Source: Planctomyces sp.
Lineage (GTDB): Bacteria; Planctomycetota; Planctomycetia; Planctomycetales; Planctomycetaceae
Assembly: GCA_016795105.1 (NCBI GenBank)
Contig: JAEUIH010000022.1
Coordinates: forward strand, 1-64,000
Direction of reading: 5' to 3'
Length of the DNA: 64,000 nt
Shown here: positions 121-57,611 of the stretch, piece by piece
Position numbering within the stretch: position 1 is the stretch's first letter
How the letters are laid out: every line of letters starts with the position of its first letter
Made by a program: the position numbers and the translations under genes
Notes under the pieces: generated by a model
Database searches by the model: none
What the model saw: only the letters and a program-made list of their open reading frames with translations
Told to the model about the DNA's origin: nothing

Positions 121-124
121 CACT

Positions 125-443
125 CAGGCAGGAATGCCCATCCTACTTAGTGCGCCGCTGCAGGACTCGAACCAGCGTGGGGACGGGCAGGAATGCCCAT
201 CCTGCTTAGTGCGCCGCTGCAGGACTCGAACCAGCGTGGGACGGGCAGGGATGCCCATCCTACTTAGTGCGCCGCTGCAGGACTTGAACCAGCGTGGGGA
301 CGGGCAGGAATGCCCATCCTACTTAGTGCGCCGCTGCAGGACTCGAACCAGCGCGGGACGGGCAGGAATGCCCATCCTACTTAGTGCGCCGCTGCAGTGC
401 TCGAACCAGCGTGGGGACGGGCAGGGATGCCCATCCTGCTTCT
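125..443. repeat. REP-like palindromic repeat array A (six copies)
   Basis: Six near-identical units of 58-60 bp. Each has the palindromic core GGGCAGGAATGCCCATCC, whose arms are separated by a 4-base loop, and a conserved linker with GCGCCGCTGCAGGACTCGAA. All copies have the same orientation, with the GTAGG or GCAGG head facing the stop codon of the DUF1501 gene that ends at 450. Linkers are as conserved as cores, so this is a homogenised tandem array and not CRISPR. Open frames across it (repeating MPILLSAPLQ-type peptides) follow from the period and have no protein features. Confidence 0.85.
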
Positions 444-43478: not shown

Positions 43479-43801
43479 GTAGGACGGCCATTCCTGCCCG
43501 TCCCCACCCTGCTTCGAGCACTACCGCCGCTCCCTAAGCAGGATGGCCATTCCTGCCCGTCCCCGCCCTGCTTCGAACACCACCGCCGCGCCCTAAGTAG
43601 GATGGGCATTCCTGCCCGTCCCCGCCCTGCTTCGAGCACTACCGCCGCTCCCTAAGCAGGATGGGCATTCCTGCCCGTCCCCGCCCTGCTTCGAACACTG
43701 CCGCAGCTCCCTAAGCAGGATGGGCATTCCTGCCCGTCCCCGCCCTGCTTCGAGCACTACCGCGGCGCCAGGGAAGGCTCGGGCAGGAATGCCCAAGCTA
43801 C
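43479..43801. repeat. REP-like repeat array C (five direct copies plus one inverted)
   Basis: Direct copies begin at 43479, 43538, 43597, 43656 and 43715, an exact 59-bp period, followed by one inverted family 2 copy (GGGCAGGAATGCCC then AAGCTAC) ending at 43801. Left copies have their heads towards the oxidoreductase stop 8 bp away. Linkers share GCCCTGCTTCGA. The ORF at 43593-43955 is a by-product. Confidence 0.85.
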
Positions 43802-50076: not shown

Positions 50077-50538
50077 GTGACAATCGATGAAAAACTGGCA
50101 TCTCTCGGTATGACTTTGCCCCCAACTCCAAAAGCCGGCGGCGTTTATACTCCGGTTGTGATCGTGGATAAACTGGCTTATGTGTCCGGTCAGGTTCCCT
50201 ACGATGCGGATGGAAATCTGGTGAAAGGACGTGTGGGTCAGGATCTGACCGAAGAACAGGGTGCCGCGGCCGCACGAGTTGTTGCCCTGACAATGCTGTC
50301 CACAGTCAAGGCTTCAGTCGGAAGTCTCGACCGGATCAAACGCGTCGTAAAGGTCCTCGGAATGGTGAACTGCACCAGCAACTTCGAACATCATCCTCAA
50401 GTCATGAACGGCTTCAGCAACACGATGGTCGAAATCTTCGGCGAAGCCGGCAAAGCTGCTCGCAGCGCCGTCGGAATGGGCTCACTCCCCTACAATGTCC
50501 CCGTCGAAGTCGAAGCCATCTTCGAACTCCACTCGTAG
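50077..50538 (+). CDS. RidA/YjgF family protein
   Basis: A 153-residue protein of the longer RidA-like branch: KAGGVYTPVVIVDKLAYVSG followed by QVPYDADG, GAAAARVVALTMLSTVKASV and the C-terminal ARSAVGMGSLPYNVPVEVEA. Archetypal RidA hydrolyses enamine/imine intermediates with an Arg at the ARxAV position, which is present here. Starts at GTG with GGAG upstream. The TAG stop is the TAG of the first copy of repeat array E, so the repeat junction defines the C-terminus. Confidence 0.93.
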   Translation: MTIDEKLASLGMTLPPTPKAGGVYTPVVIVDKLAYVSGQVPYDADGNLVKGRVGQDLTEEQGAAAARVVALTMLSTVKASVGSLDRIKRVVKVLGMVNCTSNFEHHPQVMNGFSNTMVEIFGEAGKAARSAVGMGSLPYNVPVEVEAIFELHS

Positions 50539-50823
50539 GATGGGCATTCCTGCCCGTCCCGACCTGCTTCGAGCACAGGATCGCAGCAGGGAAGGCTCAA
50601 ACGTAGGATGGGCATTCCTGCCCGTCCCGACCTGCTTCAAGCACAGGATCGCAGCAGGGAAGGCTCAAACGTAGGATGGGCATTCCTGCCCGTCCCGACC
50701 TGCTTCAAGCACAGGATCGCGGCAGGGAAGGCTCAAACGTAGGATGGGCATTCCTGCCCGTCCCGACCTGCTTCAAGCACAGGATCGCGGCAGGGAAGGC
50801 TCGGGCAGGAATGCCCAAGCTAC
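50535..50823. repeat. REP-like repeat array E (four direct copies plus one inverted)
   Basis: Direct family 1 copies start at 50535, 50603, 50671 and 50739, an exact 68-bp period; an inverted family 2 copy ends at 50823. Linkers carry GACCTGCTTCAAGCACAGG and CAGGGAAGGCTC. Heads face RidA on the left and the MBL gene on the right. There is no gene between 50539 and 50841. Confidence 0.88.
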
Positions 50824-51805: not shown

Positions 51806-52993
51806 TCAACGTTTCAGAAGGACATTCGGAATTCTCAGGCATGCTTCCAAATCACCACTCCGATGATTTCGTATCAGCAATAGTTCAATCCCCAGAAATC
51901 TCGCGGCGGCAGTACAAAATGACAACGCATCCGCTGGCAACAAATCATCCGGACTCGGTGAACTCGCAACCTCGTCGCCTGTTAACTCTTTATAATCAGT
52001 TGTCAGTTCTTCAAGCTGAGTTCCTTTCCCGACAAGAACGTTTCGCAGTTCAATGGTCGCTCCAGCGGTATCTTCCGCAAGGCTGATCAGCAACTTTCTG
52101 CCCGTCGATCTGAAGACAAAGTTTCTGTTCATGCAATACCGAATCAGCCGTACCAGCATTGTCTTAAGAATGACCAGATCCGTGAACCATGGTGTCAGAC
52201 TTGCGGGTTGCTCAACTTCAATACTCGTCAGTTCATGTCGACCGCTGGCACTGACAATCGCGGCAGATTCGATCAGCAACTCTGAGGGATTCACTTCAGA
52301 AAGCGATGGCTGATCGGTCTTCAGAAACTGCCAAATCTGATTCAGCTGGCACGTTGCGCGACGACTACTGTTTAACAACAATGTGACTGCCTGTCGCGCA
52401 TCATTCTCTGATACACTGTTCGCATCTTTCATTACACTGTTCAGAACTTCGGCGATCCCCTGAATCGAAGTCAGCGACTGACCCAGTTCGTGGATCAGTG
52501 CCGAAGCGATTTCTCCAATTACAGACCTCCGATGCAATTGTGCCCATTTGAGCAATGACGAACGATTTAGGTCCATTGCTTCAGGAATCTCAGAACCAGG
52601 CGTCACTGAGATCAGGTAAAACGTATTCCGATTTCTCCAGCATGGCCAAATTCTGAACGATATCGGCAGGATCAGTCCATCCGCTCTTGTCACGACTGAA
52701 TCCACAATCATCGAAGTGCCAGGCTCACCTGAGCAAAGCCGGCCGGTTCGAAGCAATTCACTCAGCCCCTCCCCCAGAACCTCTCTCGAAAATCGCCCGG
52801 TACAAGTTCCAGCAACTCCCAACATCTGATCCGCGAAGGAATCACTCCAGACGATTGTCTCATCCTCAAGCTCCATCAACCCCGGTAGACTGAAATTTCT
52901 CATCGGACCATGGGAAGAGTCGTTTCGCCAGTGGATGGATTGACGACTCTCAGCAGAAATATCTAATGATGCATCTGATCGTTTATTCGACAT
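51806..52993 (-). CDS. Histidine-kinase-like protein with degenerate ATPase domain
   Basis: A 395-residue soluble protein. The N-terminal half resembles a PAS fold (ELEDETIVWSDSFADQMLGV, RADGLILPISFRIWP). A HisKA-like H box IGEIASALIHELGQSLTSIQ has a plausible phospho-acceptor His. The C-terminal region aligns by position with HATPase_c but keeps only a weak N box (LVRLIRYCMNRNF) and lacks the DxGxG G boxes; VLVGKGTQLEEL occupies their place. It may be a phosphotransfer or sensor scaffold unable to bind ATP. No regulator is adjacent. Confidence 0.72.
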   Translation of the reverse strand: MSNKRSDASLDISAESRQSIHWRNDSSHGPMRNFSLPGLMELEDETIVWSDSFADQMLGVAGTCTGRFSREVLGEGLSELLRTGRLCSGEPGTSMIVDSVVTRADGLILPISFRIWPCWRNRNTFYLISVTPGSEIPEAMDLNRSSLLKWAQLHRRSVIGEIASALIHELGQSLTSIQGIAEVLNSVMKDANSVSENDARQAVTLLLNSSRRATCQLNQIWQFLKTDQPSLSEVNPSELLIESAAIVSASGRHELTSIEVEQPASLTPWFTDLVILKTMLVRLIRYCMNRNFVFRSTGRKLLISLAEDTAGATIELRNVLVGKGTQLEELTTDYKELTGDEVASSPSPDDLLPADALSFCTAAARFLGIELLLIRNHRSGDLEACLRIPNVLLKR

Positions 52994-53218
52994 GGTGATC
53001 TCCGTTTGAGTCCTAAACGTTGTCGAATTTTCGAATGTTCAGCTGGATCCGTCCGATTTCCAGCGACCGCTCCAGCATCTGGTTCAATGTATCACAGCGA
53101 TGAATTTCAAAATCAGGTGGTGAGTTTCAGAACAAGGGCCCGGTTGTTCAACATCGTCATCTGATGCTCACTCAAGGTCTCTCTGTCATCATGTGTTGCA
53201 GCCAGACATCAAGGCATG
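52994..53218. other. Upstream region of the degenerate kinase gene
   Basis: About 225 bp of unique sequence before repeat array F. It should hold the kinase gene's promoter, but no clear signal was seen. Confidence 0.3.
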
Positions 53219-53650
53219 CAGCCTGGGCATTCCTGCCCGAACACATCCCTGCCCCGTTGCAGTACTCGAATCAGCGCGGGACAAGTCGTAGCTTGGGCAT
53301 TCCTGCCCGAGCACATCCCTGCCCCGCCGCAGCACTCGAATCAGCGCGGGACAAATCGTAGCTTGGGCATTCCTGCCCGAGCACATCCCTGCGCCGTTCC
53401 AGTGCTCGAACCAGAGTGGGACGGGCAGGAATGCCCATCCTACATTTGAGCACATCCCTGCCCCGTTCCAGTGCTCGAACCAGAGAGGGACGGGCAGGAA
53501 TGCCCATCCTACATTTGAGCACATCCCTGCGCCGTTCCAGTGCTCGAACCAGAGAGGGACGGGCAGGAATGCCCATCCTACATTTGAGCACATCTCTGCG
53601 CCGTTCCAGTGCTCGAACCAGAGAGGGACGGGCAGGAATGGCCATCCTAC
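53219..53650. repeat. REP-like repeat array F (three direct family 2, four inverted family 1)
   Basis: Direct family 2 copies (CGTAGCTTGGGCATTCCTG) begin near 53219, at 53288 and at 53358 (70-bp period). Inverted family 1 copies end at 53443, 53512, 53581 and 53650 (69-bp period). Orientation and subfamily switch together at about 53400. The last copy supplies the TAG stop of the DUF1501 gene. ORFs at 53189-53593, 53216-53449, 53271-53645 and 53416-53676 are periodic by-products. Confidence 0.88.
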
Positions 53651-54957
53651 ATTTTTGTTTGAAGAAACGTCTTTAGATGTTCATCGGGTGGGACGGAGAG
53701 TGGGAACTGGCGGCAGAATGCATGGCCGGAAATTCCAGCATGATCACGCACGGCGAGGTGAATATGTTCGGGACGAATGCGAATTCCATCCTGTGGAGCA
53801 AGCTCGCAGGTGACAGGATTCAACGGAACAAGCATCTGCTCATCATCGGTAGCTCCGAGAACCCTATTCCCTTCAATCCCGGCGCCCAGAAACATTATTG
53901 AGCCAATCGACCAGTGGTCCTTACCGTTTCCATTGTTGTAGGTTGGCGTTCTACCCATTTCACTTTGAATGATGACAACAAGCTTCTCCCGGATCTTAAG
54001 ATCCTCGGCCCTTCGCAACAGATAGTCGATACCGGCAAGGAATTCCGGGATCAGCTTCATTTGATCGGCGTCGTTATTGTTGTGACTGTCAAATTGTGAG
54101 ATCGAAAGGTTCGCTGATACGCATACACCCGCACAAAAAGATGCGAGTGCAATATCAGCCTGCTGCCAGAGCCTCTCTCGAGCAGGCTCCTTCGGTATAA
54201 ATGGTGTGACTCGCTGCAGAGCTTTTGAACTTGTCTGAGCCGAGTAAAGCATACTCTGACTCCGTTCGACACGCGGCAGTCGCGCCTGAGAGACTCGGGC
54301 CTCAAACTGTGACTCCAGAGTTCGCTCAATTCGGTCGTTTACAAAGGAATCCGAATACTGATGCGTGGCACTTCCCTCTACATAATCCGCTCTTGCCAGC
54401 AGATTCAAGGACTGCAGGTACGGAACTCGCGACATTGGCACAAGGTTTCCCGTGGCGGCGTAGTTCCCAAAAGTCAGGAATGCCAGCGGTGCGTCACTAC
54501 CGAGACACGCTGCCGCAAGTGCTGGAAATGTTGGGTAGGCCAAACTGTCGAGTTTACCCGTGGCCATGTAACGGGCACACGGTGTATGGTTATTGACCGA
54601 CAGATCCAGACCATTTAACGTCAATAACTCACTACCATACTTCTGAAAGAAGTCCTCATTGCTCATACCGGCTGTGATCTGCTTTTCAGTGGGTGCAAAT
54701 CGATGATTGCCGGCTGTCAGAATGTCCGAATCCTGATAAAGACGATTGATGCCGTTCCGGCCCTTTGGATCCATCAGGTACGTCGTATCCCAGCCTCCGG
54801 ATGCATTAAAGACCACATAGTACGGACCGACATAACCCGACTCTGCTGCCTGCTCCTGCACAGAATTGCCCAGCACCTGTGACAAGCCCACCGGAGCTGC
54901 AAAGCCAAGGCCAGTTCCGGCACACAACCGCAGAAAGTGTCTTCGACTACCCATCAT
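53647..54957 (-). CDS. DUF1501 family protein (second copy), Tat-exported
   Basis: A 436-residue DUF1501 protein, more divergent and shorter than the one at 450-1913. Twin-arginine signal GSRRHFLRLCAGTGLGF at the N-terminus. Mature features: NASGGWDTTYLMDP, NNHTPCARYMATGK, FDSHNNNDADQMKL, VVIIQSEMGRTPTYN and NGKDHWSIGSIMFLGAG. It follows the cytochrome-type gene by 23 bp on the same strand, repeating the two-gene layout seen at the left end. Its last codon ATG is followed by a TAG from repeat array F. Confidence 0.9.
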   Translation of the reverse strand: MMGSRRHFLRLCAGTGLGFAAPVGLSQVLGNSVQEQAAESGYVGPYYVVFNASGGWDTTYLMDPKGRNGINRLYQDSDILTAGNHRFAPTEKQITAGMSNEDFFQKYGSELLTLNGLDLSVNNHTPCARYMATGKLDSLAYPTFPALAAACLGSDAPLAFLTFGNYAATGNLVPMSRVPYLQSLNLLARADYVEGSATHQYSDSFVNDRIERTLESQFEARVSQARLPRVERSQSMLYSAQTSSKALQRVTPFIPKEPARERLWQQADIALASFCAGVCVSANLSISQFDSHNNNDADQMKLIPEFLAGIDYLLRRAEDLKIREKLVVIIQSEMGRTPTYNNGNGKDHWSIGSIMFLGAGIEGNRVLGATDDEQMLVPLNPVTCELAPQDGIRIRPEHIHLAVRDHAGISGHAFCRQFPLSVPPDEHLKTFLQTKM

Positions 54958-54980: not shown

Positions 54981-57335
54981 CTACTCATACAGAAATTCAT
55001 GCTGCCGAAGCAAATAGGTGACAACGCCTCGCCACGCTCGAACCGAATAGTGAGGATCGTCAACTCGATAATCTTCCCGACCACCGCAGAAATACGTTTC
55101 CCGCTTTTCAAAGCGATCCTGGGCCTGAGCATCCTGAATGATACCCGAGAAGAGTTCGAATGTCCGAGTCACTTCCGGATCCTGTGGACGATCCTCCCGT
55201 CCAAGTATTCGCGAATGCAGATACACAATCGCATTTCTGATTCGCTCATCAGAGGTAGCGTTCCCTGGAAGCACATCCGGTTCAATCTCCGGAAACAACA
55301 CTCGCTCCTGTGCAGGTCGCCGGAAGTCTTTTGCCACCTGTGCACAGGCCACGTCGTTGGCCAGCAGTCGCTGAATCGCCCCCATTGCTCCTCCAGGATC
55401 CGCGTTTCGCTCTGTCACGGTAATGGAGTCGATTCCACCATACAAAACCGCGAAGTCTCCTTCGAGTTTTGCCCAGCGAGTCCCAAAGATGGCTGCAATT
55501 TTTCGTTCCAACTGTTCCGGACTTAACATGCGAACCACGCCCAGATCATCGAGTTCGGCTCGTCGCTCATCCGTTTCGACAAGTGCACTCAAACCGTCAG
55601 CGGAGTACAGATCCGAGTGCACGAGTGACTGAAAAACAGACTTCAGATTGAAACCGGATTCGCGAAACTCGTGTGCAACGTTTTCGATCAGGCGTCGCTG
55701 TTCACGATATGCGAGTCTCCGAGAATTGAACAATCGATCATCAGTGTCTTCGGGCGCCTGAAGCACTCGGCGTCCAAACAGCAGGTAGTAGACGTGTTCA
55801 GTCATCGCTATTGAAAATCGATCATCTTTGACGATCCGCTCGGACAGCCATTGTTGAGCTCTCCAGCGTTGTTCTGCTGGCAGACGTTCCCCCTCAAAAC
55901 CCGCCTCAAATATGTCCTGATACCAGCCGTCGCGCCGTGGCGCCAGGTATCCCATGTCATCGAAATCCTGAAAAATGCCGGCGACCGGGTCGATCGTTCG
56001 ATGACATACCACACAGTCAGGTGCTTCCATTACCGGGTTCGCATATTTCGATGCAACTGCAGAAGCATCTGTTGTTCTCGGTGCCAACTGCATAATGTCG
56101 ATCCCGAGGAAGTGCTGATAAATCATTCGAGCCCGCAGCCGATTCCGATTGGTTTCTGTTGTAGGATAACGGCGGAGGTAATGAAACATGCTCATGAGGC
56201 CCGCATGCGGATAAAGTCCGGTTAAGGATTCCTGAGTTTTTCCGTCACGGCCCGTAAGTGCCGAAAGTTGAGCCGGTATGTATTCAAAAGGATCTTCCTG
56301 ATTGCTGAACTGACCTCGGATGTTTTCAAAAATTCCATATCCGCGCGCAGTGTAGGGCGACACCATAATGTAATCAGCAGTCACAAGCTCAGTGAACGGG
56401 CGATCGTTCCGTACGATATACGCGATCAACTCCAAAGGCTCTCGTAAAATCGCTTCACGATACACATCCGCCAGTTTCCATCGCGCTCGCTCCTGCTCGG
56501 CTTCAGGAATATGACTCAGATCAAAGTCCTGGTACCAGAGACGCGTCTTTTCGAAGTGGTGATACGACAACAGAGTCTCTGCGTTGTCTTCAATACCAGT
56601 CGTCAGAAAAATATCGTTAAACCCTTCTTTCAAACGATCAAAAAATGCCGGCTCGTTCATGATCTCTGCAAGGATCGGTCGAATCGCTGCTCGCCCTTCG
56701 CTGTCCACTCGAGCCAACTCCTCGCTTCGAGGAAGTCGACCTGCAAGTGATAACGCAATTCGCCTCAGAAGCTTCTTCGTCGAAAGTGGGGTAACGTCGG
56801 TCAGAAACTCACGACGATCCTCCTCCTTCCAGACCTTCAGAGCAGCACTTTCCAACTCAGATGTGCTCGCGCCGGATGCACTGCGTTCCCGTACCGCTTC
56901 GACAAATTGAGTTAACACACGAAAGCCGGCTGAATCCGTTTTCAGGACTTCGCCTCCGCCATGTTCCAACTCCCCGCTTGCTTTCAGGAGAATTCGCGAC
57001 TGATCGGCTTTCGTCGTTTCCGAGACGACTGCCATGCTGAGAAACGCATGAAAGTTCTCTGCTCGGTCAGAAATCTGATCGGCCGATGAAAAGCGCTCTT
57101 TACGGAGCAGAAATGCTGATTCCCGAGCTTCTCCGTCCGCCCGGTGACATCGCAAACACGTCCGTTCACCCACTCGCGCCCAGACCTCTCGATCAAACGA
57201 TCGTAGCGATTCCGGAAGATCACCTGCAGGCTCCAGTGCACAGACACTGCTGATCCTGCCCAATGTGATCGCAGTCAGCAGGATGACCTGCCACATGACA
57301 GGATACATCAATTCAATGAAACTACTGCGAATCAT
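54981..57335 (-). CDS. Planctomycete cytochrome-type protein with two CxxCH motifs
   Basis: A 784-residue exported protein. The ATG at 57335 has GGGAGGA upstream; the frame to 57383 runs into a repeat. A signal segment (MWQVILLTAITLGRISSVCA) precedes a heme motif CLRCHRADGEA. The central region has DUF1549-like features (LLRRIALSLAGRLPRSEEL), then a second heme motif CVVCHRTIDPVAGIFQDFDD typical of the DUF1588/DUF1592-type cytochromes, and a C-terminal helical part (ERKIAAIFGTRWAKL). It forms an operon with the DUF1501 gene. Assignment to one exact DUF is uncertain; a periplasmic electron-transfer or glycan-related role is inferred. Confidence 0.85.
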   Translation of the reverse strand: MIRSSFIELMYPVMWQVILLTAITLGRISSVCALEPAGDLPESLRSFDREVWARVGERTCLRCHRADGEARESAFLLRKERFSSADQISDRAENFHAFLSMAVVSETTKADQSRILLKASGELEHGGGEVLKTDSAGFRVLTQFVEAVRERSASGASTSELESAALKVWKEEDRREFLTDVTPLSTKKLLRRIALSLAGRLPRSEELARVDSEGRAAIRPILAEIMNEPAFFDRLKEGFNDIFLTTGIEDNAETLLSYHHFEKTRLWYQDFDLSHIPEAEQERARWKLADVYREAILREPLELIAYIVRNDRPFTELVTADYIMVSPYTARGYGIFENIRGQFSNQEDPFEYIPAQLSALTGRDGKTQESLTGLYPHAGLMSMFHYLRRYPTTETNRNRLRARMIYQHFLGIDIMQLAPRTTDASAVASKYANPVMEAPDCVVCHRTIDPVAGIFQDFDDMGYLAPRRDGWYQDIFEAGFEGERLPAEQRWRAQQWLSERIVKDDRFSIAMTEHVYYLLFGRRVLQAPEDTDDRLFNSRRLAYREQRRLIENVAHEFRESGFNLKSVFQSLVHSDLYSADGLSALVETDERRAELDDLGVVRMLSPEQLERKIAAIFGTRWAKLEGDFAVLYGGIDSITVTERNADPGGAMGAIQRLLANDVACAQVAKDFRRPAQERVLFPEIEPDVLPGNATSDERIRNAIVYLHSRILGREDRPQDPEVTRTFELFSGIIQDAQAQDRFEKRETYFCGGREDYRVDDPHYSVRAWRGVVTYLLRQHEFLYE

Positions 57336-57351
57336 GCTGGATAGTCCTCCC

Positions 57352-57611
57352 GTAGCAGGCATTCTACGAATGCCGTCCGCCACTCACCTCATGATACACG
57401 ATGTGACTTGATGAAAATGTTGCGCACGTACCGTAGCTTGGGCATTCCTGCCCGAGCCGCCTCTGCCGCGTATCAGTACTTGAACCAGGACGGGACGGGC
57501 AGGAATGCCCATCCTACATTTAGAGCCACCCCTGCCGCGTATCAGTGCTTGAACCAGGACGGGACGGGCAGGAATGCCCATCCTACGCAGCACTCGGGGA
57601 GTGTCTGCTAC
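57352..57611. repeat. REP-like repeat array G (families 1, 2 and 3 together)
   Basis: Order: direct family 3 (57352-57380, GGCATTC/GAATGCC stem), direct family 2 (57433-57457), two inverted family 1 copies ending at 57516 and 57586 (70-bp period), and an inverted family 3 variant (57587-57611, CACTC/GAGTG stem). The last supplies the rsmG TAG stop. Heads face outward at both ends. The stretch lies between rsmG and the cytochrome gene and holds no gene. Confidence 0.85.

Follow-up and report, generated by a model that had tools for sequence, protein, structure and literature searches.

Unlike-ended GTAG REPs in a Planctomyces genome and the RAYT that very probably spread them

We analysed the first 64,000 nucleotides of Planctomyces sp. 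contig JAEUIH010000022.1 (the window), in which an array of hairpin repeats occupies positions 53218–53650 between two minus-strand ORFs (51806–52993 and 53647–54957). The array consists of three type-2 REPs on the plus strand followed by four type-1 REPs on the minus strand, 25 bp each; both this array and the one at 50535 are intergenic. The copies of interest in the window are as follows.

53218–53242, plus strand: degenerate type-2 REP (GCAGCCTGGGCATTCCTGCCCGAAC)
53288–53312, plus strand: type-2 REP, GTA+GCTTGGGCA/TTCC/TGCCCGAGC
53358–53382, plus strand: type-2 REP, left end of the central REPIN
53419–53443, minus strand: type-1 REP, GTA+GGATGGGCA/TTCC/TGCCCGTCC, right end of the central REPIN
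53488–53512, minus strand: type-1 REP, tandem copy, period 69
53557–53581, minus strand: type-1 REP, tandem copy
53626–53650, minus strand: outermost type-1 REP of the array, pair 7 broken (GGCCA/TGCCC)
50535–50823: array of four type-1 REPs (plus strand, period 68) against one facing type-2 REP (minus strand)
43479–43801: array of five type-1 REPs (plus strand, period 59) against one facing type-2 REP (minus strand)
57433–57586: one type-2 REP (plus strand) against two facing type-1 REPs (minus strand)
122–440, minus strand: tandem array of six type-1 REPs, period 58–59, the copy at 122 with an altered 3' foot
57352–57379, plus strand: family 3 REP, GTAGCA GGCATTC TAC GAATGCC GTCCG, of the family that flanks the C42 RAYT
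57587–57611, minus strand: degenerate family-3-like hairpin, CACTC/GAGTG, 5-bp stem

Some copies reach into gene ends. The upstream DUF1501-like ORF (53647–54957, minus strand) takes its TAG stop from the GTAG of the REP at 53626–53650, and the first GTAG of the array at 50535–50823 is the stop codon of ORF 50077–50538. ORF 54981–57383 (minus strand) starts inside the family 3 REP (window 57352–57383), so the true start is probably further downstream than listed.

An initial annotation of this DNA had described two hairpin families side by side at 53219–53650, distinguished by two flipped base pairs and sharing a wobble readable from one strand only, and each of these features is present. In going from type 1 to type 2, pair 2 turns from G-C into C-G and pair 3 from A-T into T-A with pairing kept, and pair 4 is a T.G wobble solely on the GTAG-headed strand, the complement having A.C. 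The GTAG strand folded as DNA at -8.5 and -8.7 kcal/mol and the complement at -6.9 and -6.7, either strand being more stable than shuffles. As the better predicted hairpin, the GTAG strand fits the strand-specific recognition of single-stranded DNA published for TnpAREP.

The hairpins are far more abundant across the 8.9-Mb genome than chance would give. Their 14-base core GGGCATTCCTGCCC has 647 exact matches, split 317/330 between the strands, and the reversed-pattern control has none. Exact type-1 stems (GGAT/GTCC) number 196 genome-wide and exact type-2 stems (GCTT/GAGC) 286. A pattern permitting all 16 combinations at the two variable positions had 496 matches genome-wide; the 100 of these that were listed all carried matched pairs, with no mismatched stem, and included a third type, GGTT/GACC, while 14 of the 496 are neither type 1 nor type 2 and are partly listed, and a few mixed stems are possible among them. 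GTAG REPs are short palindromes with GTAG or GTGG at the 5' foot, in tens to hundreds of copies, and these hairpins have that form. A-rich sequence precedes the outermost copies (57–62% A at -4 to -2) and may be a target or a unit sequence.

Alongside the whole-genome pattern counts, we used a sample of 178 copies in 48 clusters. Type 1 faced type 2 in all 31 convergent neighbours of this sample, and 22 of the 31 pairs were 59–63 bp apart, the inverted, closely spaced arrangement of REPINs and BIMEs. Same-direction neighbours (n = 91) were cleanly of one type in 75 cases (44 type 1, 29 type 2, 2 type 3); two joined type 2 to type 1, and the remainder include a damaged copy. Family 3 follows the same grammar: within the first 100 places listed, convergent neighbours were unlike in 19 of 19 cases and same-direction neighbours alike in 23 of 26. 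Type 1 and type 2 mark the two different ends within a single REPIN family, a relationship that is new here. Inspection of the tandem junctions by eye for cleavage sites between C and T revealed no uniform dinucleotide.

The genome has several Y1 transposase genes by a Pfam Y1_Tnp search, which missed the relevant one; the window core was absent at all of the first eight loci. With one REP-associated tyrosine transposase (RAYT) as query, three other RAYT-like genes were recovered, among them one on C350 (locus L069:261-944, minus strand). It encodes 228 aa and lies between three copies of the window REP family and five further ones, so that the RAYT which the initial annotation suggested seeking elsewhere in the genome was found flanked on both sides by these hairpins. 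The REPtron configuration, a RAYT flanked by its own REP family, is present at this locus and also at L073 and L134. The C350 protein scored E 4e-17 and 62.4 bits against NCBIfam REP_Tyr_transpos (curated cut-off 80) and 19.4 bits against Pfam Y1_Tnp (curated cut-off 23), cut-offs that are model thresholds and not biological features. Its NHAH and YIGRN motifs align with those of homologues as the HuH motif and single tyrosine (Y1), the predicted catalytic residue being Y196, and a PDB search with the RAYT family profile gave 4er8, TnpArep, as the best match (E 2.4e-6). The HuH motif reads HAH, with a small middle residue, in the C350 RAYT and in genome G002, and HVH or HCH in most homologues.

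Further RAYTs of this genome have their own repeats. A second one, on C42, is flanked by the hairpins that the initial annotation called family 3, and those on C353 and C177 are each flanked by hairpins of their own. The C177 gene (G000:C177:31088-31834, L068) carries copies of its hairpin GTCGTGGATCGCTCCGCGATCC at either side and also inside its reading frame; this hairpin has 26 exact genomic copies.

Copies of the window REP number 30 in the sibling genome G001, 11 in G002 and 0 in G003, and the family is confined to the genus bar two stray single matches. G002 encodes a 64% homologue of the C350 RAYT, flanked by hairpins of the same kind. A 56% homologue at L134 comes from a MAG whose label, Candidatus Kuenenia stuttgartiensis, could reflect a binning error; flanking this gene, GCTTGGACA/TGTCCGAGT faces GGATGGGCA/TGCCCGTCC. 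RAYT homologues at 42–47% have flanking GTAG hairpins whose stems are different and compensated; most have 9 bp and a 4-nt loop. In G003 we found neither the window REP hairpins nor the C350 RAYT gene, and in G001 we found no close C350-type RAYT (best 31%) despite its 30 REP copies; the G001 gene may have been lost or left unassembled. The window REP family was absent from both orthologous sites examined in G001, where both genes use their own stops. Immediately downstream of the DUF1501-like orthologue (G001:C66, L102, after base 2682) lies an apparently different GTAG hairpin pair, of the GTAGTGGATCTTGCTAAAGATCC type.

These distributions bear on whether the repeats could be passive, owing their spread to replication slippage or gene conversion alone, while the RAYT is a bystander. 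Tandem blocks do have a nearly constant period inside the block, often different on each side (30–102 bp), as local slippage gives. However, slippage could not disperse copies to many loci, and in each of three genomes the RAYT lies among copies paired in the same unlike manner. The C42 RAYT, too, has a flanking family to itself, with at least 287 copies. We consider passive spread highly improbable.

The initial annotation had also expected the stems to covary. The contrast between families 1 and 2 was set aside as sole proof of repeated compensation, as both subfamilies may share one founding event; GGGGA/TCCCC variants in both types, family 3 and other genomes provide evidence that is more independent. 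Across 17 distinct hairpins from RAYT-related genomes, 99.3% of cells were paired and six of nine stem pairs changed on both sides. The covariation score was 0.718, compared with 0.182 for shuffled and 0.002–0.129 for slid registers, with 8 of the 17 rows taken from a hairpin scan that favours paired stems and 9 from a sequence pattern. For family 3, the covariation claimed from the window is weak at 57587–57611, where the stem has 5 bp, and is borne out genome-wide: at least 287 copies fit a pattern that does not require pairing at three inner positions, and all 100 listed copies were paired there, with five inner stems. Together with the placement of the C350 RAYT among exactly these hairpins, the strong covariation favours the hairpin-recognising enzyme that had been suggested. 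Single copies within the genome behave differently: 64 one-sided changes break a pair and 23 keep it, and all seven double changes keep pairing. Because single-copy changes mostly break pairs, we infer that what selection acts on is the spreading lineage, not the individual copy.

The other suggestion, that the folding strand is the transcribed one, would make the hairpins structured RNA elements, for example sRNA targets, terminators or stabilisers of 3' UTRs, with each copy under its own selection. They fold well as RNA, and many outermost GTAGs lie at gene ends: at the sampled loci, 13 of 51 are the stop of an open frame of at least 100 codons, compared with 35 of 457 (7.7%) other GTAGs (p 3e-4). 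Di Nocera 2013 (PMC3733652) took GT pairing and a position downstream of genes as grounds for the transcription of many REPs, and had already noted the TAG of the tag serving as a stop codon. Against a strand-bound RNA stand the 317/330 balance of copies and the convergent pairs, which place GTAG heads on both strands, so that any transcript of a REPIN meets one wobble-form and one mismatch-form hairpin. The T.G wobble favours the GTAG strand in DNA and RNA alike and forms in single-stranded DNA too, no Rfam family matches the hairpins, pair-breaking changes predominate in single copies, and the RAYT association would require a separate explanation. A structured RNA selected on the transcribed strand is therefore unlikely; these REPs could still have a secondary RNA role.

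We conclude that the window hairpins are GTAG REPs, mostly arranged as REPINs with types 1 and 2 as their two ends, and were very probably spread by the C350 RAYT acting on single-stranded DNA. REPINs with a cognate RAYT are a known kind of system (PMC3116915, PMC3733652, PMC8266576, PMC6006769). Counting against this reading are the C350 protein's scores below both curated cut-offs and its HAH motif, the 30 copies in G001 beside no close RAYT, and the RAYT loci with identical ends. In the mechanism we propose, the C350 RAYT, a HuH-Y1 single-strand nuclease, would bind the GTAG strand of each hairpin as folded single-stranded DNA, probably at the lagging strand, cut next to the hairpin and join it elsewhere, spreading the REPIN; tandem blocks would then grow from one hairpin plus local flank. 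The enzyme would require GTAG to be followed by a paired stem of about 9 bp with a short loop, yet tolerate many stem sequences, which we propose is why compensated changes persist. With unlike ends, two small hairpins would be preferred to a single long hairpin formed end to end.

Descent from a single unlike-ended founder would alone produce the unlike-ends rule within one genome. Unlike pairs of the same style also occur at the RAYTs of G002 and L134, and the presence of the rule alongside enzymes 56–64% identical suggests that it is kept. About 10 of 15 surveyed RAYT loci have unlike ends, mostly via compensated changes, and about five have identical ends. Bertels and Rainey 2011 (PMC3116915) proposed both a long-hairpin and a clover fold for REPINs and noted compensatory changes across the long hairpin. 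In rough DNA energies for 27 REPINs, calculated from the 25-base ends only in a fixed register, two hairpins gave about -13.9 kcal/mol, end-to-end pairing as found -14.6, and end-to-end pairing with the ends made identical -30.2. Full folding of the REPINs still prefers long structures, so these energies show only that unlike ends lose most of the end-to-end advantage. Unlike ends keep the small hairpins and break end-to-end pairing, which fits the clover fold. We tentatively suggest that they are a selected property of many REPINs, with the RAYT seeing two hairpins and the long cruciform avoided; were this true, covariation would directly reveal which proposed fold is the substrate. The types may instead serve as a left end and a right end, each with its own role as in IS200/IS605 elements, and not as a device against the long hairpin. 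In both families the types do stay separate in all convergent pairs, and end order is preserved on both sides of some RAYT genes, but both ends have the GTAG head and loop in common and some homologous systems have identical ends. Separate roles are possible, though we regard them as doubtful.

What began as a hairpin curiosity is now placed as a transposase–repeat system, and its likely enzyme has been identified. The unlike-ends rule is strict and holds for two distinct REP families of this genome and for several homologous systems; it offers a cheap comparative test of whether a RAYT acts on two small hairpins or on one long hairpin, the two alternatives put forward when REPINs received their name.

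The system resembles the GTAG REP superfamily, which includes Planctomycetes, in its GTAG tag, convergent dimers, tandem reiteration with flanks, TAG as stop and, in some genomes, several RAYTs; the window family was not met in the compared sections of Di Nocera 2013 (PMC3733652), which describes 24 GTAG families. As in the E. coli BIMEs with Y and Z REPs and TnpAREP (PMC8266576; 4er8), two inverted REP types are associated with one RAYT and GTAG lies 5' to an imperfect stem. Here, however, the stem is short (9 bp) with a single T.G replacing the AA-GC bulge, and the RAYT is longer (228 aa, compared with 165 aa for TnpAREP) and only remotely similar. With the REPINs and RAYTs of Pseudomonas fluorescens SBW25 (PMC3116915) it shares inverted REP doublets, many dispersed copies, a nearby RAYT and tandem clusters. 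Unlike in SBW25, the ends differ by compensated stem pairs in every sampled convergent pair, and the arrays extend as same-end blocks on each side.
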